In this document: positions 5,472 to 56,891 of the stretch, in pieces | How positions within the stretch are numbered: position 1 is the first letter of the stretch | Layout: each line of letters begins with the position of its first letter | Assembly (NCBI RefSeq): GCF_000974805.1 | Contig: NZ_BBQZ01000005.1 | Span: 124,001 to 188,000, forward strand | Direction: 5' to 3' | Source: Demequina salsinemoris | GTDB taxonomy: Bacteria; Actinomycetota; Actinomycetes; Actinomycetales; Demequinaceae | DNA: 64,000 nucleotides | Notes under the pieces: model-generated | Database searches by the model: none | The model's input: the letters and a program-made list of their open reading frames with translations, nothing else | Told to the model about the DNA's origin: nothing | Program-made: the position numbers and the translations under genes

Positions 5472-6244
5472 CCACCATCGAATCCGTCCCAGGTGCAACG
5501 GTCCCCGACCTCGCGCCCCTCGCCCGCCGCATCGGCGCTGTCCTGCGGATCCATCTCGCGGGGCCGTTCCTGACGCTCATCCAGCCGTGGATCGTCACCG
5601 CGGTGATCTTCGCGGTCAACCTCGCCGTCTACGGGATGATCGCTTACGCGGCGGGCGGCGTGTCGGCGATCGACGACGACGCCTTCAAGCACGGCGGCTC
5701 CGTGAGCTGGGTCTTCGTGTTCATGATCGTCGTCGCGGTGCAGGCGATGCACTTCACGTTCCGCTTCGCGCTGGGCCTGTCGATCGACCGTCGCGACTAC
5801 TACCTGGGCACGCTCGCCTTCTTCGGCATGCTCGCGGTGACGTACTCCATCGGGCTGACGCTGTGCGCCGGGTTCGAGCGTGTCACCGGTGGGTGGTGGC
5901 TGAACGCGGCCTTCTTCGCCCCTATCCCGCTCGACACCGCGCCTCTCGTCACCGTCGCCTACGTGTTCGTCGTCGGGTTCCTGCTCGCGTTCGCCGTGGG
6001 CGCGTTCTCCGCGTCGGTGTGGGTGCGATGGGGAGCGCGAGGGCTGTACTGGTACTTCGGGATCCTCGCGTTCGCGGTCGTCGGCCTCCTGTGGAGCATC
6101 ACCGCCGCCGGGGCGTGGGGAGACGTGTGGGAGTTCCTCTCGCTGACATCCCTCGCGGAGATCGCCACGTGGGCGCTGCCGCTTGTGGCGGTGTGCGCGG
6201 CGGGCGGCTGGCTCCTCCTGCGCAGGGCGCCGCTCAGCGCGTGA
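5468..6244 (+). CDS. ABC transporter membrane subunit
   Basis: 258 aa with about six hydrophobic helices (first near residues 37-62; last near the C-terminus, WALPLVAVCAAGGWLLL). It has no recognised enzymatic motif. The FRFALGLSIDRRDYYLG segment, with its conserved 'G-(I/L)-S-R-R-(D/E)-(Y/F)' pattern, is typical of membrane partners of YtrB-type ATPases. It is translationally coupled to the ATPase, and its stop ends one base before the stop of the convergent OYE gene. Confidence 0.85.
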   Translation: MTTIESVPGATVPDLAPLARRIGAVLRIHLAGPFLTLIQPWIVTAVIFAVNLAVYGMIAYAAGGVSAIDDDAFKHGGSVSWVFVFMIVVAVQAMHFTFRFALGLSIDRRDYYLGTLAFFGMLAVTYSIGLTLCAGFERVTGGWWLNAAFFAPIPLDTAPLVTVAYVFVVGFLLAFAVGAFSASVWVRWGARGLYWYFGILAFAVVGLLWSITAAGAWGDVWEFLSLTSLAEIATWALPLVAVCAAGGWLLLRRAPLSA

Positions 6245-6245
6245 G

Positions 6246-7352
6246 TCAGCCCTCGTCGGTCGGCACGCGGCGAGCCGCGAACGTGCCGCGCAGGAACTGC
6301 TTGGGCCAGTAGTCGATCTCGACGCCCAGCTCGTGCGCGGCGCGCAGCGGGAAGTGCGGGTCACGGAGGAACTCGCGGCCCGCGAACACGGCCGACGCCT
6401 TGCCCTCGGAGATGATCAGGTCCGCCTGCTTGGCGTCCACGATCTCGCCGACGGCGCCGGTGATGATCCCTGCGCGGTCGTACACCGCCTTCGAGTGAGG
6501 CACCTGGTAGCCGGGGCCCGTGGGGATCTGCGCGCCGGGGACGAGGCCGCCGGTCGAGACGTCGATCATGTCGACGCCCGCCTCGCGCAGCCACGTCGCG
6601 ACGGTCACGGTGTCCTCGAGGGTCCAGCCCTCGGGCTCCATCCAGTCGGTCGCGGACATGCGGACCAGGACGGGGACGTCGGGGCCGGCGATCGCGCGGA
6701 CCTCCTTCGCGATGGCCAGGAGCAGGCGCGAGCGGTTGACGATCGAGCCGCCGTACTCGTCCTCTCGGTCGTTGGACAGCGGGGAGAGGAACTGGTGGAC
6801 CAGGTAGCCGTGCGCGGCGTGGATCTCGAGCACGTCGAAGCCCGCCTTGAGCGCGCGCGCCGCCGACTGGCCGAACGCGTAGACGATGTCGTTGATCTCG
6901 TCGGACGAGAGCCCGTTCGGCTCGTCGTAGCCCGGGAAGGCGATCGGGGAGGGGGCGACCGTCGTCCATCCGCCCTGGTCCTTCGGCACGGTGCCGTTGC
7001 CCACCCACGGGCGCTCGCTCGACGCCTTGCGGCCCGCGTGCGCGAGCTGGATGCCGGCCTTGGCGCCCTGCGAGTGGATGAAGTCGACGATGCGCGTCCA
7101 CGAGTCCTGCTGCTCGTCGCTCCACAGCCCCGGGCACCACGGAGTGATGCGGCCCTCGGGGACCACGCCGGTCGCCTCGGCCATCACGAGCCCCGCGCCG
7201 CCCTGGGCGTACGAGCCGAGCTCCACGAGGTGCCAGTCCGTGGGGACGCCGTCCTGCGCGTCGCACGAGTACTGGCACATCGGGCTGACCCACAGGCGGT
7301 TGCGGAAGTCGACGGAACGGATCGTCAGGGGACTGAACAGCGTGGAGGTCAT
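6246..7352 (-). CDS. namA: Old Yellow Enzyme, YqjM/NamA class
   Basis: 368-aa FMN-dependent NAD(P)H:flavin oxidoreductase that reduces alpha,beta-unsaturated carbonyls, quinones and similar electrophiles. The N-terminal VSPMCQYS places Cys26 and Tyr28 exactly where YqjM has its redox-tuning Cys and substrate Tyr. The substrate-binding HAGRKAS loop and the FMN phosphate-binding segment are also present. It lies 70 bases downstream of a TetR gene on the same strand, an arrangement common for electrophile-inducible OYEs. Confidence 0.94.
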   Translation of the reverse strand: MTSTLFSPLTIRSVDFRNRLWVSPMCQYSCDAQDGVPTDWHLVELGSYAQGGAGLVMAEATGVVPEGRITPWCPGLWSDEQQDSWTRIVDFIHSQGAKAGIQLAHAGRKASSERPWVGNGTVPKDQGGWTTVAPSPIAFPGYDEPNGLSSDEINDIVYAFGQSAARALKAGFDVLEIHAAHGYLVHQFLSPLSNDREDEYGGSIVNRSRLLLAIAKEVRAIAGPDVPVLVRMSATDWMEPEGWTLEDTVTVATWLREAGVDMIDVSTGGLVPGAQIPTGPGYQVPHSKAVYDRAGIITGAVGEIVDAKQADLIISEGKASAVFAGREFLRDPHFPLRAAHELGVEIDYWPKQFLRGTFAARRVPTDEG

Positions 7353-7364
7353 GCGGCCATCCTG

Positions 7365-7379
7365 TCGTACATCGTGCGA
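7365..7379 (-). promoter_or_regulatory. candidate TetR operator before namA
   Basis: A short inverted repeat TCGTAC-ATC-GTGCGA (5 of 6 pairs) lies 13 bases upstream of the namA ATG, in an AT-richer patch. It is a plausible site for the TetR protein encoded just upstream. Inferred from position and symmetry. Confidence 0.35.
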
Positions 7380-7422
7380 TTTGCGAACAGTCGCGCGCCG
7401 ACGGGGATGAACCCGCGTCCGG

Positions 7423-8031
7423 TCACGCCGTCGGGGCGTTGGCGAGATCGAACCAGTAGCGCGGCGTGGCCTCGATGAGGAAGTCCGATGCGGCGTCGCG
7501 GTCGCGCGGCTCGGGGGAGAGCAGCCACGCCCGCAGCGCGCCGACCAGGCCGTGGCTCGTGAAGGCCACCTCCATCTCGAGGTGGAGCCTCTCGCCCGGG
7601 TCCTGGAACCGGTGCGGTGCCGACGCCTCGGCGAAGTCCAGCAGCGAGCTCTCGATGTGCCGTGCGAGCATCGCCTGCATCGCGGTGCCGCGATTGGCCT
7701 TGGTGGGGGCGAGCGCCATGCGGTAGACGTCCTGGTGCTCCTCGACGTGCGTGAGCAGCGCCATCTCCGACTTGCGCCACTCGGCCTCGAGGTCGCCGCC
7801 CACGAAGCCGCGCAGGAAGTCGGCGCGCACCCTGTCGAGGCCCGCGGCCAGGACGCGGCCCAGGAGCTCCTCGGGAGACTCGGCGTGGTTGTAGAACGTC
7901 GCGCGCGAGACGTGGGCCGCGCGAGCGATCTCGCTCACGGAGAGCTCCTCGATGGGACGCTCGGCGGCGAGCTGGAGCACGGCGGTCTCGAGCGCGGTGG
8001 CGCTGCGAGCGAAGCGAGGGTCGACAGTCAT
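7423..8031 (-). CDS. TetR-family transcriptional regulator
   Basis: 202 aa. The N-terminal helix-turn-helix is clear: LSVSEIARAAHVSRATFYNH, followed by AESPEELLGRVL. The C-terminal ligand domain is not assignable to a subfamily. I chose the ATG at 8031 because a TAGGGT box (8044-8039) ends 7 bases before it, giving a leaderless transcript; a GTG at 8040 lies inside that promoter. It probably controls namA and itself. Confidence 0.9.
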   Translation of the reverse strand: MTVDPRFARSATALETAVLQLAAERPIEELSVSEIARAAHVSRATFYNHAESPEELLGRVLAAGLDRVRADFLRGFVGGDLEAEWRKSEMALLTHVEEHQDVYRMALAPTKANRGTAMQAMLARHIESSLLDFAEASAPHRFQDPGERLHLEMEVAFTSHGLVGALRAWLLSPEPRDRDAASDFLIEATPRYWFDLANAPTA

Positions 8032-45769: not shown

Positions 45770-47242
45770 TCAGTCGGACCCATTCGTGGTGCTGCGGGCC
45801 TTGTGTCGGTACATCGCGTGATCCGCGCGCGTGAGCAGGGAGTCGAGCGTCGGCGCGTCACCGGGGCCGGCCGCCGCGGACCCGATGCTGGCCCTCGCCT
45901 CCGCGGGGCCGTCGCTCAGGACGAAGATGTCCCCGAAGAGCTCATGGATGCGCGCGGTCACCGGCTCGGAGACGATCTCGGGACATCCCTCGACGACCAC
46001 GATGAACTCGTCGCCGCCGAGCCTGCCGACCAGATCCTTGGGCCCGCTCCTCACGAGCACGCCGAGCCGTTCCGACACCGCGACGAGGAGCTCGTCGCCC
46101 GCTGCGTGCCCGCGGGTGTCGTTGATCTCCTTGAACCCGTCGAGATCGATGAACCAGACGACGATCCCCGGCGAGTCTCCTGCGCGCACGCGTGTCGTCA
46201 GCGCCTCGATGCGGGCGTCCACCGCGCGCCGGTTGGGCAGGCCCGTGAGCATGTCGTGGTCCGCGAGGAAGCGCAGCCGGGACTCGGCGTCGCGGTGCGA
46301 GGCGGCGAGCTGGCTGATGCGCGTGAGCACGAGGGAGGTGACGACCACCGAGGCGATCGCGCCGCTCAGCACGTCGACGCGCCCGCCCGCCAGCACGCGC
46401 GTGATCACGATGATCGGCGTGGTCATCATCGCGACCCCGAGGACGAAGATCCGGCCCGAGGTGAGCTGAACCGTTCGTTGCGGGATGATCTCGAAGGCGT
46501 CGGGACCGGCAGGATGCACGATCGCCCCCCACGTGGCCGCGAACGCGACGGGCCACAGGACGCCGATCCACTCGGGAGCGACGCGGGTCGCGGGATCCGC
46601 GAGCACGGTCTCGAGCACGTTGCCCGTGACGGTGATCAGCAGCGCCACCGCGAAGTACCACTTCACGGGGCGCGCGGAGCGCGGCACCCCGCCTGTCGCC
46701 CTGAGGCCCACCACCACGCCGATCGCGCCGATGAGGGTCGTGGTGACGATGAGGATCTGCCACCGCTGCCACGGGGCGGCGTCCGCCATCCCCAGCACGG
46801 GAGCGAGGGACGCCTGCCACAGCGCGGACGTCGTCGCGACGGTCAGCGTGGTCGCGTCGAGGACCCCGCCGAGGCCGTGCCGCGCCGAACGGCGGATCAC
46901 GAGGACCGCGGCGACGAGCAGGAAGAGGTAGCCGACGCCCATGAGCGCGTGCACCGCGAGGTGCGTGGAGTCCTCGGGCGTCCCGCTCGCGAAGGTGCCG
47001 AACCACAGCGCGCTGGCGGCGAGCTGGAAGACGTAGCCTGCGAGCAGGGCCGCGTAGACGCGGCGCGCGAGGCCGCTCGTGCGGCGGACCCGGCCGAGCG
47101 TCGCGATCGTGAGCACGAGGCTCATCGCCGTGACGGTGCCGGAGCCGACGGTCGGGCCGCCGGCGAGGTAGGTCGCGACCGACGCCGCGGACATCAGCAG
47201 CACGGTCGCGAGCACGCGGGCCTCGGCGCTGATCGTCCTCAT
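45770..47242 (-). CDS. membrane diguanylate cyclase 1 of 4
   Basis: 490 aa. About ten hydrophobic helices fill residues 1-300, with the motif GGVLDATTLTVATTSALWQ. The GGDEF domain has DHDMLTGLPNRRAVD, FIDLDGFKEINDTRGHAAGDELL and GRLGGDEF (409-413). The active site is intact, so it should make c-di-GMP. The position of the inhibitory I-site Arg (nine before GG) holds Gly, so feedback inhibition is probably lost. No EAL domain. A GATGTT box ends 6 bases before the ATG. It is the last of four paralogs. Confidence 0.94.
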   Translation of the reverse strand: MRTISAEARVLATVLLMSAASVATYLAGGPTVGSGTVTAMSLVLTIATLGRVRRTSGLARRVYAALLAGYVFQLAASALWFGTFASGTPEDSTHLAVHALMGVGYLFLLVAAVLVIRRSARHGLGGVLDATTLTVATTSALWQASLAPVLGMADAAPWQRWQILIVTTTLIGAIGVVVGLRATGGVPRSARPVKWYFAVALLITVTGNVLETVLADPATRVAPEWIGVLWPVAFAATWGAIVHPAGPDAFEIIPQRTVQLTSGRIFVLGVAMMTTPIIVITRVLAGGRVDVLSGAIASVVVTSLVLTRISQLAASHRDAESRLRFLADHDMLTGLPNRRAVDARIEALTTRVRAGDSPGIVVWFIDLDGFKEINDTRGHAAGDELLVAVSERLGVLVRSGPKDLVGRLGGDEFIVVVEGCPEIVSEPVTARIHELFGDIFVLSDGPAEARASIGSAAAGPGDAPTLDSLLTRADHAMYRHKARSTTNGSD

Positions 47243-47344
47243 GTTCTCAACATCGGAAGCGATGCGCGGAAGTGAGGGATTGTGGCGCGCTACCGGTTCG
47301 ACGGCGCGGGCGCCGGGTCGGCGGTGACCGCGGGCAGGACGCGC

Positions 47345-48826
47345 TCAGGACGGAGCAGGATCGCCGGCCTCGCGCCGCCGGTGCTTCTCCGCGTACATCG
47401 CGTCGTCCGCGCGGCTGAAGAGCTCCTCCGCGGTGCGGAGGTCGCCGGGGCCGACGACCGCCATCCCGATGCTCGCCGACGCGGTCACGGCGCCATCGCT
47501 CAGGGAGAAGGGGGCGGAGAACGCCTCGCGCACGCGGGCCCCGACGGACGGCGCGGTCGAGGCAGGGTCTCCCGCGGCGACCAGGATGAACTCGTCGCCC
47601 CCGAGCCGGCCGACCAGGTCACCCGAACCCGCGCGCGCCAGCCCCGCGAGCCTGTCCGCGATGGCGATGAGCAGCTCGTCGCCTGCCGTGTGCCCGTGAG
47701 TGTCGTTGATGACCTTGAAGCCGTCCAGGTCGATGTAGCAGACCGTCAGCCCAGGCGACGATCCCTCCGCGACCGTGCCCAGCGTCGTCTCCAGGTGGTA
47801 CCTCACGGTGCGTCGGTTCGGAAGCCCCGTGAGCGCGTCGTGCCCTGCCAGGAAGCGCAGTCGGGTCTCGGTGTCACGGTGCGCCGTCGCGAGCTGGTTC
47901 ACGCGCAGCAGCACCATCACGGCCAGCACCGTCGTGGCCCCTGCGGACGCGGCCCATCCCACGAAGCCCCCGGTGATCTCGCGCACGATCGCGATGGTCG
48001 GGGAGATCACGAGGGCGACGCCGAGCAGCATGATCCTGCGGGTGGTGAGCCTGCTCTGCCGCGGAGGAGCGGCCTGGAACGCCTCGGACCCCGCCGGGTG
48101 CGCGATCGCGCCCCATGCCACGGAGAAGGCGAGCGGCCAGCACAAGCCGGCCCACCACGGGGCGATGTTCGTGACGGGATCCGCATACATCGCGCCGATC
48201 GCGTTCCCGCCCACCGTGAGGATGAGCGCGACCACGAAGTAGCGCAGCACGGGGCGTGCGGCGCGCGAGGTGCTGCCGTTGGCCTCGAGCCCGATCACCA
48301 CGCCGACGGATCCGCTGAGGATGATGATGACGAGGAAGACGTAGGCCCGCTGGGCGTACGACGTCGAGGAGGCGTCCATCGCGGGTGCGAGGAAGGCCTG
48401 CCACACCGCGGACGCCGCCGCGACCGCAAGCGTGGCCGCGTCGAGCACGCCTCCGGGGTCCTGCCTCACGGAGCGTCCCACGACGAGGAAGGCGGCCACG
48501 AGGAGCAGCACGTATGCCACGCCGAGGAGCGCCTGCCACTCGTTGTGGATCGAGGACTCCTCGACACCGCGCGCGAAGGTCGTCAGCCACAGCAGCGCCG
48601 CGCCGTTCAGCACCACGAAACCTGCGAGCAGGAACGAGTAGACCAGGCGCGGGAATCCGGTGACGCGCGAGGCCCGGACCGCTGCGGTCGCGGTGACCAT
48701 GAGACTCAGGACCAGCACGGTGGCGGATCGTATGACGGCGTCGCCGACCACGTAGGCGGCGGCGGACGCCGCGGACATCACGAGCACGACGAAGAGCACT
48801 CGCGCGCGCGTCCTGTCCTGACTCAT
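47345..48826 (-). CDS. membrane diguanylate cyclase 2 of 4
   Basis: 493 aa with the same plan: about ten helices (GGVLDAATLAVAAASAVWQ), then LTGLPNRRTVRYHLE, YIDLDGFKVINDTHGHTAGDELL and GRLGGDEF at 409-413. The I-site Arg position is Gly (AGSGD). A GATGGT box ends 6 bases before the ATG, so it may have its own leaderless promoter despite the ~100-base gap to its neighbours. Confidence 0.94.
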   Translation of the reverse strand: MSQDRTRARVLFVVLVMSAASAAAYVVGDAVIRSATVLVLSLMVTATAAVRASRVTGFPRLVYSFLLAGFVVLNGAALLWLTTFARGVEESSIHNEWQALLGVAYVLLLVAAFLVVGRSVRQDPGGVLDAATLAVAAASAVWQAFLAPAMDASSTSYAQRAYVFLVIIILSGSVGVVIGLEANGSTSRAARPVLRYFVVALILTVGGNAIGAMYADPVTNIAPWWAGLCWPLAFSVAWGAIAHPAGSEAFQAAPPRQSRLTTRRIMLLGVALVISPTIAIVREITGGFVGWAASAGATTVLAVMVLLRVNQLATAHRDTETRLRFLAGHDALTGLPNRRTVRYHLETTLGTVAEGSSPGLTVCYIDLDGFKVINDTHGHTAGDELLIAIADRLAGLARAGSGDLVGRLGGDEFILVAAGDPASTAPSVGARVREAFSAPFSLSDGAVTASASIGMAVVGPGDLRTAEELFSRADDAMYAEKHRRREAGDPAPS

Positions 48827-48908
48827 GCCCCCACCATCGGCCGTGACGCTCCGAGGTGAGCGACTCGAGGCGTGCGGTGTCCACGATCACACGGGCGAAG
48901 CGGTCCGA

Positions 48909-50390
48909 TCAAGCCCCGTCGCGTCCGGAGGCCGTCCCGCGTCGGCGCTTGTCGTCATACATCGCGTGGTCCGCCTGCGTGAGCAGCTCGTCGACCGTGT
49001 GCAGCTCGCTCGGGGAGGCGGTGGCGAGCCCGATGCTCGCGGACATCGTCATGGGCCCGTCGCTCAGCGCGAACGAGGTCTCGAACGCGTGCGCGATGCG
49101 GGCCATCATCGGCGCCGAGGCGAGGGACGGGTCGCCCTCGCCGATCACGATGAACTCGTCGCCGCCGAGCCTCCCCACGAGGTCGTCGGACTCCGAACGG
49201 GCCAGTCCCGCGAGACGAGCCGCCACCGCCGCGAGCAGCTCGTCGCCCACGGCGTGCCCGTGAGCGTCGTTCACGCCCTTGAAGTCGTCCAGGTCCACGA
49301 AGCACACCACCGCGCCGAGCGCGTGCCCGGTGGCGACGCGGGAGGCGAGGTCGCCGAGATGCTGCTCGACGGCGCGGCGATTCGGCAGGCCCGTGAGCGC
49401 GTCGCGTTCGGCGAGGATCCGCAGCCGCGCCTCGGCGTCGCGGTGGGCCGCGGCGAGCTGGCTGACGCGCGCGAGCACCATGACGACGATCGCGAGCGTG
49501 GTGATCGCCCCGGTCAGCCAGTCGACGTATCCGTCGGTGAAGGAGCGCACGACGGCGATCGCCGGCGTGATGACCATCGCGACGCCGAGCGCGACGAGTC
49601 GCCTCGTCGTGAGACGGCTCTGGTGCGGACGGCCCACCTCGAAGACGGCGGAGCCCATGGGATGAGCGAGGGCCGCCCACGCCGCGATGTAGGACAGGGG
49701 CCACAGGACGTCGGTCCACCATGCGTCCGCGCCCGTGACCGGGTCGGTCGCAGTGGCGTTGAGGCCGTTGCCGGCCACGGCGATCAGGAGCGCGGCAAGG
49801 AAGTAGCCCAGGACTGGGCGGGCCGAGCGCGAGACGGATCCGTTGACGCCGACACCGATCACCACCCCGACCGTGCCGCTGAGGACGATCGTGGCCGCGA
49901 ACGTCGACACCGTCTGCGCTCGGGGCGCGTCGACTGAATCGAGCGCGGGCGCGAGGAACACCTGCCACAGCACCGATGCGGTGGCGATCGCGAGCGTCGC
50001 GGCGTCGAGGACCCCGCCGGTGTCGTAGCGCAGCGCCGGCGCCATCGCGAGGAGTGAGGCCGCGAGCAGGAGGACGTAGGCGGCGCCGACCATCGGGACG
50101 CTGATCGCGTCGACCGCGGACTCCGACACCCCGACGGTGACGACGGCGAGATACGACGCCTCGTTCATGACCATCAGGACGAAGCCTGCGAGCAGGAGCG
50201 AGTAGACGAGACGCATCGAGCCGACGGCGGTGCGCAGATGCGGGATCACCGCCGAAGCCGCGAGGACGCTTGTCAGCACGACGATGGCGCCGCCGACGGC
50301 GGGCGGGCTCGCGAGGTACACGGCCGAGGAGGCGAGCGCGAGCACCAGCGCGCAGCACGCCACACGTCCCGGTGTGCTCACGAAGCCCAT
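48909..50390 (-). CDS. membrane diguanylate cyclase 3 of 4
   Basis: 493 aa. Helices with GGVLDAATLAIATASVLWQ, then LTGLPNRRAVEQHL, FVDLDDFKGVNDAHGHAVGDELL and GRLGGDEF at 409-413. The I-site Arg position is Glu. I chose the ATG at 50390 because AGGGGGA lies 5-6 bases upstream and the longer frame has no paralog match. This copy alone has a clear ribosome site, and the gap to copy 4 is only 43 bases, so it may be co-transcribed with copy 4. Confidence 0.93.
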   Translation of the reverse strand: MGFVSTPGRVACCALVLALASSAVYLASPPAVGGAIVVLTSVLAASAVIPHLRTAVGSMRLVYSLLLAGFVLMVMNEASYLAVVTVGVSESAVDAISVPMVGAAYVLLLAASLLAMAPALRYDTGGVLDAATLAIATASVLWQVFLAPALDSVDAPRAQTVSTFAATIVLSGTVGVVIGVGVNGSVSRSARPVLGYFLAALLIAVAGNGLNATATDPVTGADAWWTDVLWPLSYIAAWAALAHPMGSAVFEVGRPHQSRLTTRRLVALGVAMVITPAIAVVRSFTDGYVDWLTGAITTLAIVVMVLARVSQLAAAHRDAEARLRILAERDALTGLPNRRAVEQHLGDLASRVATGHALGAVVCFVDLDDFKGVNDAHGHAVGDELLAAVAARLAGLARSESDDLVGRLGGDEFIVIGEGDPSLASAPMMARIAHAFETSFALSDGPMTMSASIGLATASPSELHTVDELLTQADHAMYDDKRRRGTASGRDGA

Positions 50391-50433
50391 CCGCGTCCCC
50401 CTGATCGCCGACTGGCGCGGCCGATCGATGCCC

Positions 50434-51906
50434 TCACGTCGCCACGGCTCGACGCCGAGCGCGCTTGTCCTGATACATCCTGCCGTCGGCATGGGTGAGG
50501 AGCGAGTCGGCGCTGCTCACCTCGCCGGGCCTCGCGGTGGCCACGCCGACGCTCGCCGACGCTGTCGCGGGGCCGTCGCTCAGCGCGAACGTGCCTTCGA
50601 GCGCCCGGTGGACCCTCGCGACGAGGGCGTCCGCGGTGGCTTCTGGCTCCCCCTCCGCGACCACGACGAACTCGTCGCCGCCGATCCTTCCGACGAGGTC
50701 GTCCGTACCGGAGCGCGCGAGCCGAGCGAGCCTGCCCGCGATCGCGACGAGCAGCTCGTCCCCGATGGCGTGGCCGCGGGTGTCGTTCACCTGCTTGAAG
50801 CCGTTGAGGTCGATGAAGCACACCGCAGCGCCGGGCGCCTCGCGCGCGGCGACGCGGAGCGCGAGGGCGTCGAGGCGCTGCTCGACGATCCGCCGGTTGG
50901 CGAGCCCCGTGAGGCTGTCCTGGTCGGCCAGGGACTGGAGCCTCGTCTCGGCGCCCCGGTGCGCCGCGGCGAGCTGGGCCACGCGCGCGAGGACCATGAC
51001 GATGATCACGACGCTCGCGACGGCCTCGCCTGCCCAGTCGACGTAGGAGCCGGCGAGATCGCGGACGACCGCGATGCTCGGGGTGATCATCATCGCGAGG
51101 CCGAGCATGAGCAGCCGTCGAGAGGTGAGGCGTCGCGACCCCTGCGCGGTCACCGCGAGCATGTCGGGACCCGCGGGGTGGGCGAGGGCCGCCCACGCGG
51201 AGACGTAGGACACGGGCCAGACCGCGTCGATCCACGAGGGGTAGGCGTGCGTCGCGGGGTCGAGGAAGGCGGAGCCGAGCACATTGCCGGCCAGCGCGAG
51301 CCCGAGAGCGCCGAGAAGGTAGAGCAGGACCGGGCGGGCCGAGCGCGGCGCCGAGCGGTTGAGGATGATCCCCGCCACGATGCCCGTGGCACCGCTCAGG
51401 ATCACGACGATCGCGAAGGAGTAGGCGCGGGCGCTCGTGGGCGCGCCTGTGGCGTGCAGCGATGGCGCGAGCACCGCCTGCCACAGCGCGGCGGCCGCGG
51501 CGACCGCGAGCGTGGCCGCGTCGAGCATTCCTCCGGGGTCGCGCCGCGCGGTCGGCACCAGCGCGAACGCGGCCGCCACCAGGATGAGCAGGTAGCCCCC
51601 TGCGATCAGCCCCGACATCGCGTTGCCGATCGCCTCGGCATCCACGCCCAGGGTGAGTGTCGAGACCCACAGCGTCTCCGCGGTGATCAGCAGCGTCAGC
51701 CCGACGAGCACGGAGCCGTAGACGACGCGGGCTCCACCCCTGGAGCGCACGAGGTGGGGGATCACGTTCGCGGCGGTCAGCATCCCCGCGAGCGGGACGA
51801 CGACGGCGCGGATGAGCGGTGTGCCCTCCAGGAACAGCGCGACGAAGGCGACGGAGAGGGCCACGGCGAGCACGAGCACGCGCGCGGGAGTGCGGACGAT
51901 GCTCAT
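50434..51906 (-). CDS. membrane diguanylate cyclase 4 of 4
   Basis: 490 aa. Helices with GGMLDAATLAVAAAAALWQ, then LTGLANRRIVEQRL, FIDLNGFKQVNDTRGHAIGDELL and GRIGGDEF at 409-413. The I-site Arg position is Gly. The ATG at 51906 follows a GATAGG box by 6 bases, and SIVRT just after it matches the short cytosolic N-termini of the paralogs. It is the first of the four in transcription order and divergent from the zinc-ribbon/SPFH module. Confidence 0.93.
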   Translation of the reverse strand: MSIVRTPARVLVLAVALSVAFVALFLEGTPLIRAVVVPLAGMLTAANVIPHLVRSRGGARVVYGSVLVGLTLLITAETLWVSTLTLGVDAEAIGNAMSGLIAGGYLLILVAAAFALVPTARRDPGGMLDAATLAVAAAAALWQAVLAPSLHATGAPTSARAYSFAIVVILSGATGIVAGIILNRSAPRSARPVLLYLLGALGLALAGNVLGSAFLDPATHAYPSWIDAVWPVSYVSAWAALAHPAGPDMLAVTAQGSRRLTSRRLLMLGLAMMITPSIAVVRDLAGSYVDWAGEAVASVVIIVMVLARVAQLAAAHRGAETRLQSLADQDSLTGLANRRIVEQRLDALALRVAAREAPGAAVCFIDLNGFKQVNDTRGHAIGDELLVAIAGRLARLARSGTDDLVGRIGGDEFVVVAEGEPEATADALVARVHRALEGTFALSDGPATASASVGVATARPGEVSSADSLLTHADGRMYQDKRARRRAVAT

Positions 51907-52147: not shown

Positions 52148-53875
52148 GTGACGCAGCGGTATGGCGAGGTGTTCCTGCCCGAGGGTGAGGGGACGAGCGA
52201 GGGCACGTCGACCGCGGGCGCCTCGACAGTCGTCTCCGGGAGTGAGGCGGTGTTCGAGACCCCGCCGAAGCCGCCCGTCGACCCCGCCGCCGCGAGCGGC
52301 CGTCGCCTCGCGACCCCCGCGGGAGTCGGCAACGGTGTGGTGCGATGCCCGAGCTGCGGGTCGTCGCAGGGAGCCGCCGCGGACGACGGCACGTCCTTCG
52401 TGTGCGCCCACTGCCGGCACGAGTGGCGCGCTGCGGACCTGGATCGAGCGATGGGCCTATCCGAGCACATCTCGGGGCTTCAGGGGCCGACGCACGCGAC
52501 TGCCGCGACGAACATCACGTCCGACGACCCCCTGATGGCGGTGGCGTGCGACGGGTGCGGCGCTGAGGTGGTGATCGACACGGAGCGTTCGCTGCGCGCG
52601 GCCTGCCCCTGGTGCCGCCACGAGCTGTCGCTCAGCGACGCAGTTCCCAGTGGAATGGTTCCCGACGGCATCCTGCCGTTCTCGGTGTCCAAGGCGCAGG
52701 CCTGGCAGAGCGTGCAGGCCGCCGCGCGTCGTCGCTGGTGGTTCGCCTCGAAGGGTTTCCGGCAGGGACTCGCAGTGGAGAACCTCAAGCGGGTCTACCT
52801 GCCGTACATGACAGTGGATGTGCGCGCGAACGTGCGGATGGACGGCTTCGGAGAGGTCGAGCTCGCCAGGTCGAGCGCTGGCGAGACCACGACGTACCAG
52901 GCCCGACGCTACGCCGTGATGCGTCAGGTGGAGGTCGAGGTCGACGATCTGATCGTCGAGACCGGCTCTGCCACGGCGAGCTCTGGCGCCGCGGCAGCGA
53001 CCACGAACATCTTGGGCGCGATCCTGCCGTTCGACGTCAAGAACGCGGTGCGATTCGACGCGCGGGTGCTGGAGGAGGACGCCACGGTGCAGCGTCGTGA
53101 GCTCGACTCGTCCGACGCGGGTCCCGTCGCGGCGGGGCACGTCCTCGCGATCGCGAGGGAGGCGGCGCGCGAGTCGGTCTCCCAGTACGACCGCTATGTG
53201 CAGTGGGAGGCCGAGCAGGCCAGGATCGAAGGAACCCGATGGGTGTCGATGCTGCTGCCCGTATGGCTCTACAGCCATGTCGAGCACGAGCGCGGCGGGG
53301 ACACGGCCCACTTCATCGCCGTGAACGGCCGGACCGGGGCAACTTCGAGCTCGATCCCGATGGACCGTCGACGCCTCGCACTGGTCTCCTTGGGGCCTAC
53401 GATGCTCCTCCTGTCGCCGTTCTTCCTGATCGGGCTCGCCTCGCTGTTCCTCATGCGAGACCCGATCTTCTCCCTGATGTTCCTCCTCGTTCCGGTGCCG
53501 TTCGTCGTCGCGCCGGCCTGGATCATCCGATTCGTGATCAAGCGGAGGTACCGCAACGCCGAGGCACGGTACGAACCCGAGAAGGTCGTGGCGAGGGAGT
53601 CGGCGGTCGTCGCGGGAAGCGACCTCGAGGTCGGCGACGTGACGTCGACGTCGGCCGGGGTCCCGTGGCCGAACTCGATGTTCGCGCACCTGCGTGCGCG
53701 CCATTGCGTGTACTTCGCGGCCACTGTGGCCTCCGGCTCCCGGCTGGGCCCGCCGCCGATCTCCACTCATGAGCCCTACCAGGCGGACCTGCTTGAGCAC
53801 GGCATCCGCGGTATCCCCGCTCAGCTCACGCCTCCGAGCGTCCCACGGCTGATCGACGAGCCGTCGCCGCAATGA
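52148..53875 (+). CDS. double zinc-ribbon membrane protein, YdjG-like (long form)
   Basis: 575 aa. A disordered N-terminus precedes two zinc ribbons: C67/C70/C86/C89 (CPSCG...CAHCRHEW) and C134/C137/C153/C156 (CDGCG...CPWCRH). A large conserved beta-rich domain follows (GILPFSVSKAQAW, VYLPYMTVDV, AILPFDVKNAVRFD, WVSMLLPVWLYSHV, HFIAVNGRTGAT), then two membrane helices (about 415-465) and a cytosolic tail with RRYRNAEARYEPEK and LRARHCVYF. Bacillus YdjG, with YdjH, anchors PspA-type proteins; that this protein does so is inference, as no PspA is nearby. Confidence 0.82.
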   Translation: MTQRYGEVFLPEGEGTSEGTSTAGASTVVSGSEAVFETPPKPPVDPAAASGRRLATPAGVGNGVVRCPSCGSSQGAAADDGTSFVCAHCRHEWRAADLDRAMGLSEHISGLQGPTHATAATNITSDDPLMAVACDGCGAEVVIDTERSLRAACPWCRHELSLSDAVPSGMVPDGILPFSVSKAQAWQSVQAAARRRWWFASKGFRQGLAVENLKRVYLPYMTVDVRANVRMDGFGEVELARSSAGETTTYQARRYAVMRQVEVEVDDLIVETGSATASSGAAAATTNILGAILPFDVKNAVRFDARVLEEDATVQRRELDSSDAGPVAAGHVLAIAREAARESVSQYDRYVQWEAEQARIEGTRWVSMLLPVWLYSHVEHERGGDTAHFIAVNGRTGATSSSIPMDRRRLALVSLGPTMLLLSPFFLIGLASLFLMRDPIFSLMFLLVPVPFVVAPAWIIRFVIKRRYRNAEARYEPEKVVARESAVVAGSDLEVGDVTSTSAGVPWPNSMFAHLRARHCVYFAATVASGSRLGPPPISTHEPYQADLLEHGIRGIPAQLTPPSVPRLIDEPSPQ

Positions 53876-53922
53876 GCGCGTGCGCAGAGTCGGTGCAGAC
53901 CCCACCGTGCATGGGAACCCGG

Positions 53923-53952
53923 TTGCGGGCCGTCACGTTGCCTCGATAGGTT
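53923..53952 (+). promoter_or_regulatory. promoter of the SPFH gene
   Basis: TTGCGG (53923-53928) and TAGGTT (53947-53952), 18-base spacer, in the 170-base gap before the SPFH gene. GAGAGGAG 6 bases before the ATG is the ribosome site. Confidence 0.45.
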
Positions 53953-54045
53953 CTCAGTGCGGATCCTTCCGGTCCGTTTCGGGGGAGGGCTCGAGGCGCG
54001 GGCCCGACGTGCGACCAGAGGTCGCGCGGGACGAGAGGAGTCGTC

Positions 54046-55245
54046 ATGGGGTTCATCCAGATCGCGCTCGGCGCAGGCTGGGACGCTCTGAAGTCGTCGT
54101 TCGGGGACCAGTTCCTCGACTTCCTGGTCCCGCCGGCCGGGATCGGCGACACCGTCGTCCTGTTCCCTGCCGTGACCCAGGGCACGAACGCGGGCCGCGG
54201 CCAGAACACGCGCGGCTCCGACAACATCATCACCAACGGTTCCGTGATCGTCGTGCCCGAGGGGTACGGGCTGCTCACCTTCCAGGACGGCGCCGTCACG
54301 TCGGTCGTCGCCGAGTCGGGCGCCTACCGGTGGGACAGCGAGGCCCAGGACTCGAAGTCCGTCTTCTCGGGCGGCGGCCTGCTCAACTCGACGTTCACGA
54401 CGTCGTGGGAGCGCTTCAAGCTCGGCGGCCGCCCGATGGGTCAGCAGCTCGCGTTCTACGTGAACCTCAAGGAGATCCCGAACAACAAGTTCGGCACCCA
54501 GAGCCCGATCTACTGGGACGATCGCTACCTCAACACGCAGGCGGGCGCGATCACGCGGGGCACCTACGTGCTCGAGGTCTGCGACCCGATCCTGTTCGTG
54601 AAGACCCTGGTACCCGCCTCGTACATCTCCGCAGGGGCTCGCCCGTTCGACATCACCGAGGCGACCAACCCGGTCTCCGAGCAGCTCTTCAACGAGGTCA
54701 TCGGCTCGCTCGCCGGCGCGTTCTCGCGCTACGTCAACGACCCCGACAAGGACCACCGCATCACGCGCATCCAGGGCGACTCGGTCGGCTTCGCGAAGTC
54801 GCTGTCCGAGGAGGTCGAGAAGAACTACCAGTGGACCACCGAGCGCGGCCTCGAGATCAGCTCGGCGACCCTCGTCGCGATCGAGTACGACGCGGACACG
54901 CAGACCCTGCTGTCCGATGTCCGCAAGGCCGATGCCCTCTCGGGCGGGCGCGCGGACACCTTCCTCAAGCAGTCGGTCGCCCGCGGCGTCCAGTCCGCCG
55001 GTGAGACGGGGGGCGGGACCGGGCTCGCGATGATGGGCATGGGGATGGGCGCGATCGGCGGCATGGTCCCCGCGACCCCCGGCGCGCCGGCGGGGATGGC
55101 CGCGGGAGCCGCGGCCCAGCAGCCCGCTGCCCCGGCGGCCCCGGACCCCTACGCCCAGCTCGCCTCGGCCAAGAAGATGCTCGACGACGGCCTCATCAGC
55201 CAGGACGACTACGATGCGCTCAAGAAGAAGGCGCTCGGGCTGTAG
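54046..55245 (+). CDS. SPFH-domain protein with C-terminal SHOCT motif, YdjI-like
   Basis: 399 aa. It matches the 'virion core protein/YdjI' type of SPFH (flotillin-like) protein: FLDFLVPPAGIGDTVVLFPAV, ITNGSVIVVPEGYGLLTFQDG, and a coiled region ELSEEVEKNYQW. A Gly/Met/Pro/Ala linker (about 325-365) leads to a SHOCT motif (QLASAKKMLDDGLISQDDYDALKKKALGL, residues 370-399, split here). No membrane helix; such proteins assemble under the membrane and recruit PspA-like partners. It is flanked on both sides by zinc-ribbon genes. Confidence 0.87.
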   Translation: MGFIQIALGAGWDALKSSFGDQFLDFLVPPAGIGDTVVLFPAVTQGTNAGRGQNTRGSDNIITNGSVIVVPEGYGLLTFQDGAVTSVVAESGAYRWDSEAQDSKSVFSGGGLLNSTFTTSWERFKLGGRPMGQQLAFYVNLKEIPNNKFGTQSPIYWDDRYLNTQAGAITRGTYVLEVCDPILFVKTLVPASYISAGARPFDITEATNPVSEQLFNEVIGSLAGAFSRYVNDPDKDHRITRIQGDSVGFAKSLSEEVEKNYQWTTERGLEISSATLVAIEYDADTQTLLSDVRKADALSGGRADTFLKQSVARGVQSAGETGGGTGLAMMGMGMGAIGGMVPATPGAPAGMAAGAAAQQPAAPAAPDPYAQLASAKKMLDDGLISQDDYDALKKKALGL

Positions 55246-55251
55246 GCGCTC

Positions 55252-56418
55252 ATGGCTGAGGAGATCGCGACCCCGTCGGGAAGCGCCGACGGAGTCGACA
55301 GGTGCCCCAAGTGCGGCGCGTCCGACGTCGTGCAGCTCGAGGACCAGCACCAGTTCATGTGCTCGTTCTGCCGTCACCGGTGGGGCTTCGAGCGGCTCGA
55401 CGAGGCGATGGGCCTGTCCGAGGGCATCGCGGACCTCACAGGGGTGAGCTACTCGACCGCGGCCTCCGACATCGTCTCGGACGATGCGCTCGTCACGCTC
55501 AAGTGCGACGGCTGCGGATCGGAGGTCGTCGTCGACACCGACCGCACGCTCCAGGCGCGCTGCCACTGGTGCAAGCACGTCCTGTCGCTCAACAACAGGA
55601 TCCCCAACGGCGCGGTGCCCGACGGGATCCTGCCGTTCTCGGTCACGCGCGAGCAGGCGATGGCGCACATCCAGAGGTTCGCCGAGGAGCGCAGGTCCTT
55701 CGCTCTCCCGGCCTTCGCTGACACCTTCACCCCCGCGAACGTCATGGGCGTGTACCTGCCGTACATGACGGTCGACGGCAACATCTCAGCGCGGCTCGAC
55801 GGCATCGGGGAGATCACCAGGCGCACCACCCACAGCAAGGAGCACGGCACCACCTACTACGTGGACCGCTACGGGGTGACGCGCATGCTCGACATCGAGA
55901 TCGATGACCTCATCGTCGAGTCGAACTTCGAGAAGGCGAACATCCGCTCGGCGACGAGCACGAACAACGTGATCAACGCGATCCTGCCGTTCGACGTCAA
56001 GAACATCGTCCGCTTCGACGCGCACTTCCTGGGTGAGGATTACACCTCGCAGCGGCGCGACATGGACATCGACGAGGCCGAGGGCGTCGCCGCGAACCAC
56101 TTCATGACCGTGGCGCGCGGCGCCTCCGAGGCCTCGGTCGCCCAGTACCGCCGCGGCGTGCGCTGGGAGTCCGAGCAGCTCCGCATCGACGGGGTGCGCT
56201 GGACCTCCGTCCTGCTCCCGGTGTGGCTGTACGGCTTCGTCGAGAACCGCAAGGGCACCCCCGTGACGCACTACATCGCCGTCAACGGGCGCACCGGCGC
56301 GACGATGGGGTCGGTCCCCATCAACACCAGGAAGGCCGCGATGCTCGCATGGGGCATCGCGATCGGCGTCTCGGTGGTCACCTGGCCACTGGGCTTCGCG
56401 ATGCTGGTGGCGTCATGA
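55252..56418 (+). CDS. double zinc-ribbon protein, YdjG-like (short form)
   Basis: 388 aa, a paralog of the protein at 52148. Zinc ribbons C18/C21/C37/C40 and C85/C88/C104/C107 are followed by the same core (GILPFSVTREQAM, VYLPYMTVDGN, AILPFDVKNIVRFD, WTSVLLPVWLYGFV, HYIAVNGRTGAT). It ends after one membrane helix (AMLAWGIAIGVSVVTWPLGFAMLV). The second helix and tail of the long paralog are encoded by the next gene, which overlaps by ATGA. It starts 6 bases after the SPFH stop, so it is in that operon. Confidence 0.85.
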   Translation: MAEEIATPSGSADGVDRCPKCGASDVVQLEDQHQFMCSFCRHRWGFERLDEAMGLSEGIADLTGVSYSTAASDIVSDDALVTLKCDGCGSEVVVDTDRTLQARCHWCKHVLSLNNRIPNGAVPDGILPFSVTREQAMAHIQRFAEERRSFALPAFADTFTPANVMGVYLPYMTVDGNISARLDGIGEITRRTTHSKEHGTTYYVDRYGVTRMLDIEIDDLIVESNFEKANIRSATSTNNVINAILPFDVKNIVRFDAHFLGEDYTSQRRDMDIDEAEGVAANHFMTVARGASEASVAQYRRGVRWESEQLRIDGVRWTSVLLPVWLYGFVENRKGTPVTHYIAVNGRTGATMGSVPINTRKAAMLAWGIAIGVSVVTWPLGFAMLVAS

Positions 56419-56891
56419 TGCTCGGCGACGTCTCGGACGTGCTCGCCGCGAACGTCGTCCTTGCGTACGGCGGGGGAGGAGGCGACGGCGGTGGCCTCGG
56501 CTTCTTCGCGCTGCTCCTGTTCGCGGCGGGGCCCGCCGCGGGCTGGGGGACCTGGACGTGGATCCAGCGCCGCTACCGCAATCGGGAGGCCCGCTACCGG
56601 CCCGACCGGACCGTGGCCCACCACGTCTCGAGCCTCACAGGCGATGACCAGCCCCGCGGTCGGTTCAGGAGCCGTTCCGCCTACACCTCGGACCGCAACG
56701 ACGGCGCCCCGGATCAGCGGGCGCGCCACGCGCAGTACTTCCACGGCGAGCTCCGCAAGCCGGAAGCGGAGGACGAGGTCGAGGACGGCGTGCGCGAGGG
56801 CGAGGCCGAGCCAGCGCCCCCGGTGACGGGAACCGCACCCCCGCCGCCCCCCGCATCGTCCCCTCCGACCCCTCCTCCGCCGACGCGCTAG
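56415..56891 (+). CDS. small membrane protein completing the short YdjG-like protein
   Basis: 158 aa. A Gly-rich segment and one or two helices (LGFFALLLFAAGPAAGWGTW) precede IQRRYRNREARYRPDRTV and QRARHAQYF. These match RRYRNAEARYEPEK and LRARHCVYF at the same relative place in the C-terminus of the protein at 52148. The 55252 and 56415 genes therefore look like the two halves of one ancestral protein. The end is Pro-rich (PPPPPASSPPTPPPP), with a decamer copy at 56852. It could instead act as a YdjH-like partner. Confidence 0.75.
   Translation: MMLGDVSDVLAANVVLAYGGGGGDGGGLGFFALLLFAAGPAAGWGTWTWIQRRYRNREARYRPDRTVAHHVSSLTGDDQPRGRFRSRSAYTSDRNDGAPDQRARHAQYFHGELRKPEAEDEVEDGVREGEAEPAPPVTGTAPPPPPASSPPTPPPPTR

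Follow-up and report, generated by a model that had tools for sequence, protein, structure and literature searches.

A zinc-ribbon/SPFH-SHOCT gene module without PspA in Demequina: a candidate envelope assembly of the YdjGHI type

In Bacillus subtilis, YdjG, YdjH and YdjI are seen as a receptor that places PspA. What, then, might relatives of this receptor do where there is no PspA to be placed? The question is raised by a locus of the actinobacterium Demequina salsinemoris (assembly GCF_000974805.1, 98.8% complete), which lies at positions 52148-56891 of a 64,000-nucleotide stretch of contig NZ_BBQZ01000005.1. This whole stretch is referred to here as the window. The locus encodes an SPFH protein with a C-terminal SHOCT motif together with zinc-ribbon membrane proteins and a small membrane protein, and the arrangement is both real and conserved. 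Three of its genes, B, C and D, form a unit that we take, with a probability of about 0.62, to be a PspA-independent receptor/SPFH envelope assembly of the YdjG/YdjH/YdjI type.

Four plus-strand genes, not three, occupy the locus; they and their features are as follows.

52148..53875, plus strand: gene A (GTG start, 575 amino acids, aa), an extra YdjG-type protein, predicted to join two zinc ribbons, a beta domain, two transmembrane (TM) helices and a cytoplasmic tail in a single chain (YdjG profile family match, E 1e-35; model with a predicted local distance difference test score, pLDDT, of 79.6)
52346..52414, plus strand: zinc ribbon 1 of A, Cys67/70 and 86/89 (cysteines invariant in 52/52 aligned rows)
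52547..52615, plus strand: zinc ribbon 2 of A, Cys134/137 and 153/156 (cysteine alignment)
53399..53527, plus strand: predicted TM hairpin of A, two helices (hydropathy; helices in the predicted model)
53594..53656, plus strand: predicted tail strand of A, residues 481-501, putative counterpart of D (model pLDDT about 90; similarity of tail and D)
54046..55245, plus strand: gene B (399 aa), SPFH protein with a C-terminal SHOCT motif and without a TM segment (SPFH fold in the model; YdjI match, E 5e-12)
55153..55236, plus strand: SHOCT motif of B, residues 370-397 (Pfam PF09851, E 2.9e-5, 24.1 bits, below the cut-off of 27)
55252..56418, plus strand: gene C (388 aa), YdjG-type protein with two zinc ribbons (four CxxC), a beta domain and one predicted TM helix (profile, cysteines, hydropathy)
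55303..55371, plus strand: zinc ribbon 1 of C, Cys18, 21, 37 and 40 (CxxC positions)
55504..55572, plus strand: zinc ribbon 2 of C, Cys85, 88, 104 and 107 (CxxC positions)
56415..56891, plus strand: gene D (158 aa), small protein with one predicted TM helix and a basic, putatively cytoplasmic tail, candidate TPM-less YdjH (ATGA overlap with the stop codon of C)
56487..56597, plus strand: predicted TM helix of D and its RRYRNREARY motif (hydropathy and sequence)

Gene content and gene order

An earlier, sequence-only reading of this stretch had described two double-zinc-ribbon membrane proteins flanking an SPFH-SHOCT protein. All three are present where it placed them, and its end coordinate covers D, the conserved partner that it left unnamed. 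The flanking itself is not a conserved unit, as a zinc-ribbon gene upstream of the SPFH gene was found only in the window among 133 loci scanned for gene order. These comprise the window and sets of 80, 40 and 12 loci, with five places counted twice (L001-L005 are the same as L143, L146, L149, L148 and L154). The set of 80, the best of 117 loci, holds close relatives of B (48-94% identity), mostly from Bacillota metagenome-assembled genomes (MAGs), plus Demequina and Salinibacterium; additional loci were drawn from other genomes of the same order. An SPFH gene is present in 131 loci, and in 120 of these a zinc-ribbon gene lies directly downstream, so that the arrangement is not due to chance. 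Among these 120, D stands as a gene of its own at 48 actinobacterial loci (the window included, five places twice) and 2 Bacillota loci, and 64 Bacillota loci encode it as part of the zinc-ribbon protein; its position is taken by a TPM-type YdjH in 2, and 4 showed no tail. What is conserved as a unit is B-C-D. Thus a survey of gene neighbourhoods, which the sequence-only reading had proposed, bears out the pairing of SPFH and zinc-ribbon genes and neither the double flanking nor an association with cyclases; across families, the module has no further neighbour that recurs.

The comparison with YdjG and YdjI made in that reading proves, for the zinc-ribbon proteins, to be one of homology. Bacilli loci of the order PspA-YdjG-YdjH-YdjI were used as the reference, and in one of them, L250, the first residues of YdjG agree with the translation of the ydjG primer given in PMC8581546. 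In PMC11237479, YdjG is said to combine two zinc ribbons with a YpeB-related domain and a TM segment, and YdjH is given as a TPM protein. Because the hhalign alignment of the family containing A and C with YdjG spans 322 columns at E about 1e-35 (Prob 99.9), A and C are homologues of B. subtilis YdjG. The zinc-ribbon profile was built from 62 of 82 cluster members, those outside 460-530 aa having been dropped. Pfam and NCBIfam match A and C weakly. A further YdjG-type protein, of 581 aa, is encoded at 6211-7953 of locus L285; in it, the two zinc ribbons are set apart by a long insert.

The best sequence matches of the ribbons among solved structures are to RNA polymerase, ribosomal and TFIIB-type ribbons. 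Such matches would suit a model in which the zinc-ribbon proteins are membrane-tethered DNA-binding regulators, with B controlling their release or clustering; moreover, the ribbon of YdjG has been called a DNA-binding type and DNA binding has been suggested for YdjG (PMC9239133). However, the matches are restricted to the ribbons and are weak (E 0.001 to 1), zinc ribbons are also common protein-protein modules, and Pfam found no helix-turn-helix. We regard this explanation as improbable.

B is matched weakly by Pfam and not by NCBIfam: its Band_7_1 hit, at E 0.0022, falls under Pfam's own cut-off, as does SHOCT. Nevertheless, its assignment to the SPFH proteins is sound, because its AlphaFold model (pLDDT 75) is matched by Foldseek to stomatin, HflK/C, prohibitin and flotillin, with a best E of 5e-7. 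The profile alignment of B with YdjI (E 5e-12) is more remote than that of the C family with YdjG, B being a distant relative of YdjI. No TM segment is predicted in B, where no 19-residue stretch has a mean hydropathy above 1.5. The terminal zinc ribbon found in the YdjI of L250 is absent from B, where a SHOCT motif stands instead. According to PMC3581485, SHOCT occurs most often on band-7 proteins, and no support was obtained there for an oligomerising role; one may guess that in B it serves in docking. Six loci (L279, L280, L281, L284, L286 and L287) encode divergent actinobacterial SPFH proteins that share about 30-36% identity with B and end in SHOCT or a zinc ribbon; no zinc-ribbon gene was found downstream of the SPFH gene at any of them.

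Gene D and the YdjH position

Gene D has no match in Pfam or NCBIfam. By hhalign, it aligns with the tail of the fused proteins at E 1.2e-15, and on this comparison it is the same thing as the C-terminal tail of fused A-like proteins. In C and D, the hairpin predicted for A is divided between its two helices, and the charges fit a cytoplasmic tail for D. C and D should therefore pair, giving the build that A has in a single chain.

What, however, is the origin of D? When compared with YdjH using three YdjH sequences, it gave no significant match. Successive profiles of the TM-tails of 13 to 16 YdjH sequences, from which identical tails had been removed, matched D at E 2e-4, 1.1e-5 and 4.5e-6 (Prob 86.6 for the last), and the match falls on the TM helix and the tail behind it. 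Controls in which the TM helix was kept and the tail shuffled scored as high in none of 100 cases with the profile giving E 1.1e-5, and in 1 of 200 with that giving E 4.5e-6. Five PspA-free Bacilli operons (L260, L261, L269, L270 and L271) have the order SPFH-YdjG-YdjH, with YdjH in the position of D. At L033, YdjG and then a TPM-type YdjH come after an SPFH-SHOCT protein that shares 54% identity with B; the distant actinobacterial loci L289 and L290 have a lipoprotein-like YdjH in the same position, and the D of L282 has kept an apparent signal peptide without a TPM domain. Because the profile match to the TM-tail of YdjH is joined by a shared gene position and by TPM-bearing intermediates, D is quite probably a YdjH that lacks the extracellular TPM domain, that is, its sensor. 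This small, overlooked gene may explain how the receptor is constructed.

PspA, TPM and the neighbouring cyclases

The absence of PspA and of a TPM protein, noted from the window in the sequence-only reading, holds for the whole genome. A search of the kind it had called for, with PF04012 at E 0.001, found no PspA in the host, while 9 of 14 control genomes were positive; the same threshold gave none in 24 sampled genomes of one family (f1). TPM (PF04536) was found in 0 of 44 Demequina genomes, as against 8 of 14 controls. Nor did the PspA profile match near any of 182 SPFH or zinc-ribbon loci, although it detected 9 of 9 control loci, and the thirty top Bacilli PspA loci have no zinc-ribbon neighbour. 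The Bacilli Ydj-type loci had been located through the SPFH family and not through PspA. The locus is of the YdjGHI type and, since PspA was looked for and is not among its members, is not by membership a Psp system.

Most carriers of the module likewise lack PspA. In a sample of 297 genomes of the order, 44 carry B with a strong match (at least 386 bits, the next best being 192); PspA is present in 8 of these carriers and missing from 36, compared with its presence in 165 of the 253 other genomes (p 8e-9, uncorrected for phylogeny). Among 45 other carriers, reached through 45 of the 80 loci, 42 have no PspA over the cut-off, the 3 that do all being Salinibacterium, with one further match below the cut-off; most of these 45 genomes are small MAGs, in which absence is weaker evidence. 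Within one genus of 38 genomes, B occurs in 34, PspA in 3, neither in one (74% complete) and both in none (p 5e-4, uncorrected). On an rpoB tree of 30 chosen genomes, SPFH and PspA each undergo about six changes of state, and random pairings on the tree gave, on average, about 2 opposite changes and no same-way changes. As few independent pairs are available on that tree, the mutual exclusion of SPFH and PspA is kept as suggestive.

It could be asked whether the module serves a PspA-like client elsewhere in the genome, either an ESCRT-III fold too diverged for PF04012 or a remodeller such as dynamin. The SPFH partner of B. subtilis does place PspA (PMC8581546), and 11 carrier genomes have PspA. 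Against this, the profile that was positive in 9 of 14 controls detects nothing in the host or in the sampled f1 genomes, and no gene recurs beside the module that might encode such a client. We consider a hidden client unlikely.

A second alternative, and one that the sequence-only reading raised, is that the module scaffolds, or answers to, the diguanylate cyclases next to it. Four tandem TM-GGDEF genes, forming one sequence cluster and so a local expansion, lie on the minus strand at 45770-51906, divergent from the module, and one to four copies are found at the same place in four other Demequina genomes (G043, G004, G028 and G013). Cyclases adjoin the module, however, in only 5 of the 19 Demequina loci (of the 19, L153 is cut at a contig end), in 0 of 20 other actinobacterial loci, and in 3 of the 71 loci left in L007-L080 once those of Salinibacterium are set aside. 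The 14 Demequina loci where they do not adjoin include that of G026, whose SPFH protein is 94% identical to B; because G026 and G009 share the flanking genes and lack the cyclases, the latter represent an insert or a loss in a common neighbourhood. Across the 297 genomes, 43% of the carriers (19 of 44) and 43% of the others (109 of 253) have GGDEF proteins, which leaves 25 carriers with none, and Pfam finds no domain binding cyclic di-GMP in A-D. The link was rejected on these counts of co-occurrence and adjacency, and seems most improbable. As a separate observation, GGDEF proteins are rarer in module carriers outside the family of the window (5 of 30 versus 99 of 243, p 0.01, uncorrected).

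The proposed assembly and the extra protein A

In B. subtilis, YdjI has no TM segment and requires YdjG and YdjH for recruitment to the membrane, YdjH binding both of the others (PMC8581546). Loss of ydjI changes membrane fluidity, and loss of ydjG or ydjH causes defects in cell shape and wall synthesis that do not follow from the loss of pspA or ydjI (PMC8581546). The part of PMC10936438 available mentions YdjI with PspA only. Given the behaviour of these proteins, B-C-D would keep the receptor and the SPFH part without the PspA coat. Two zinc ribbons and the beta domain of C are predicted to lie in the cytoplasm, the chain ending in one TM helix; D would supply a second helix and a cytoplasmic tail, a strand of which is predicted to extend the beta domain of C. 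C and D would thereby rebuild the single-chain form of A and of the Bacillota proteins, and would together form the receptor that anchors B at the membrane; B would assemble as an SPFH oligomer against the inner face, with SHOCT in place of the terminal ribbon of YdjI. By means of its TM helices, such an assembly might sense or buffer disturbance of the envelope, and its effects would be on membrane fluidity and the synthesis of the cell wall.

The module resembles B. subtilis pspA-ydjGHI in having a YdjG homologue, an SPFH protein without a TM segment and a small membrane partner in the YdjH position. It differs in the absence of PspA and TPM, in the SHOCT that replaces the terminal zinc ribbon of the SPFH protein, and in order, being SPFH-G-H where B. 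subtilis has PspA-G-H-SPFH; in the window, there is also a second, fused YdjG-type protein. The five PspA-free Bacilli operons share its gene order and have no PspA alongside, and their SPFH proteins are closer to B than to YdjI, but they retain TPM and the terminal zinc ribbon. Flotillin/NfeD pairs likewise combine an SPFH protein with a membrane partner; unlike flotillin, B has no self-anchoring TM segment or hairpin, and the module has zinc ribbons. Band-7, SHOCT and zinc ribbons have been tied to sub-membrane complexes by Ravi et al. (2024; PMC11237479), where, in the text available, the Ydj set is described with PspA and the SPFH-SHOCT/YdjG/D triad is not named. No description of a PspA-free unit of this kind was found in the open-licence PubMed Central literature, including the available part of PMC12419801; one may be contained in the supplementary tables or web resource of PMC11237479.

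Several observations weigh against such an assembly. A downstream zinc-ribbon gene is lacking at 11 of the 131 SPFH loci, of which 3 end at a contig edge. The link between D and YdjH is modest, given the one tail-shuffled control in 200 and the non-significant three-sequence test. PspA coexists with the module in 8 of the 44 carriers of the order and in the 3 Salinibacterium genomes, and its exclusion by SPFH is not significant on the rpoB tree, where 3-4 supported independent pairs give a median p of 0.5 in a sign test.

Nevertheless, conservation in many bacteria, mostly without PspA, suggests a complex that can guard the cell envelope by itself. Should PspA be missing from the hosts of most YdjGHI relatives, then the receptor has a task independent of it; the defect in cell shape, observed in ydjG and ydjH mutants but not in pspA mutants, is in keeping with this, and the module offers PspA-free hosts in which such a task may be tested. 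It is a tentative and rather doubtful extension that the SPFH-SHOCT/YdjG/TPM-less-YdjH complex is self-contained and replaces PspA, with lineages keeping one or the other, and that an ancestral YdjGHI core predates the recruitment of PspA in Bacilli.

The single-chain protein A was modelled with a pLDDT of 79.6 and a predicted template-modelling score of 0.75, confidently for both ribbons, the beta domain and the 21-residue tail strand. This strand (residues 481-501, pLDDT about 90) is placed behind the TM hairpin, and the beta domain is its likely partner. Against the PDB, the fold of A gave no Foldseek match at E 0.001; in a VIA comparison, YpeB was among ties (Z 4.2, root-mean-square deviation 4.4, 69 residues), a result too weak to use alone. 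Because A has a very long branch (1.51) inside the Demequina proteins in the zinc-ribbon tree, where long branches leave its exact place unsure, it looks like a diverged, fast-evolving extra copy in the fused form. That branch, and the occurrence of A beside SPFH only in the window, would also fit a relic, or a receptor for a different partner unrelated to B, which would be compatible with the assembly proposed for B-C-D. A has, however, an intact open frame, all eight ligand cysteines and a purine-rich stretch ahead of its start codon, and has the same orientation as B, at a distance of 170 bp. We lean away from both the relic and the different partner, and suggest that A is a diverged duplicate that may act in the host strain as a second, single-chain receptor for B.

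A scan of the locus gave no promoter-like site, and terminator-like sites numbered 1 as against 1.1 expected. Identity as a defence system was considered and rejected, PADLOC having matched ribbons alone at E 0.005 or weaker, as was membership of a phage family, for which PHROGs gave short, weak matches alone. Second copies of C and D, without an adjoining SPFH gene, occupy a shared locus in two Demequina genomes (L155, G032:C4, and L156, G013:C13). At another Demequina locus (L160, in G003), the zinc-ribbon protein clusters with those of Salinibacterium (98% in the Shimodaira-Hasegawa-like approximate likelihood ratio test, SH-aLRT), which suggests lateral transfer of the module.

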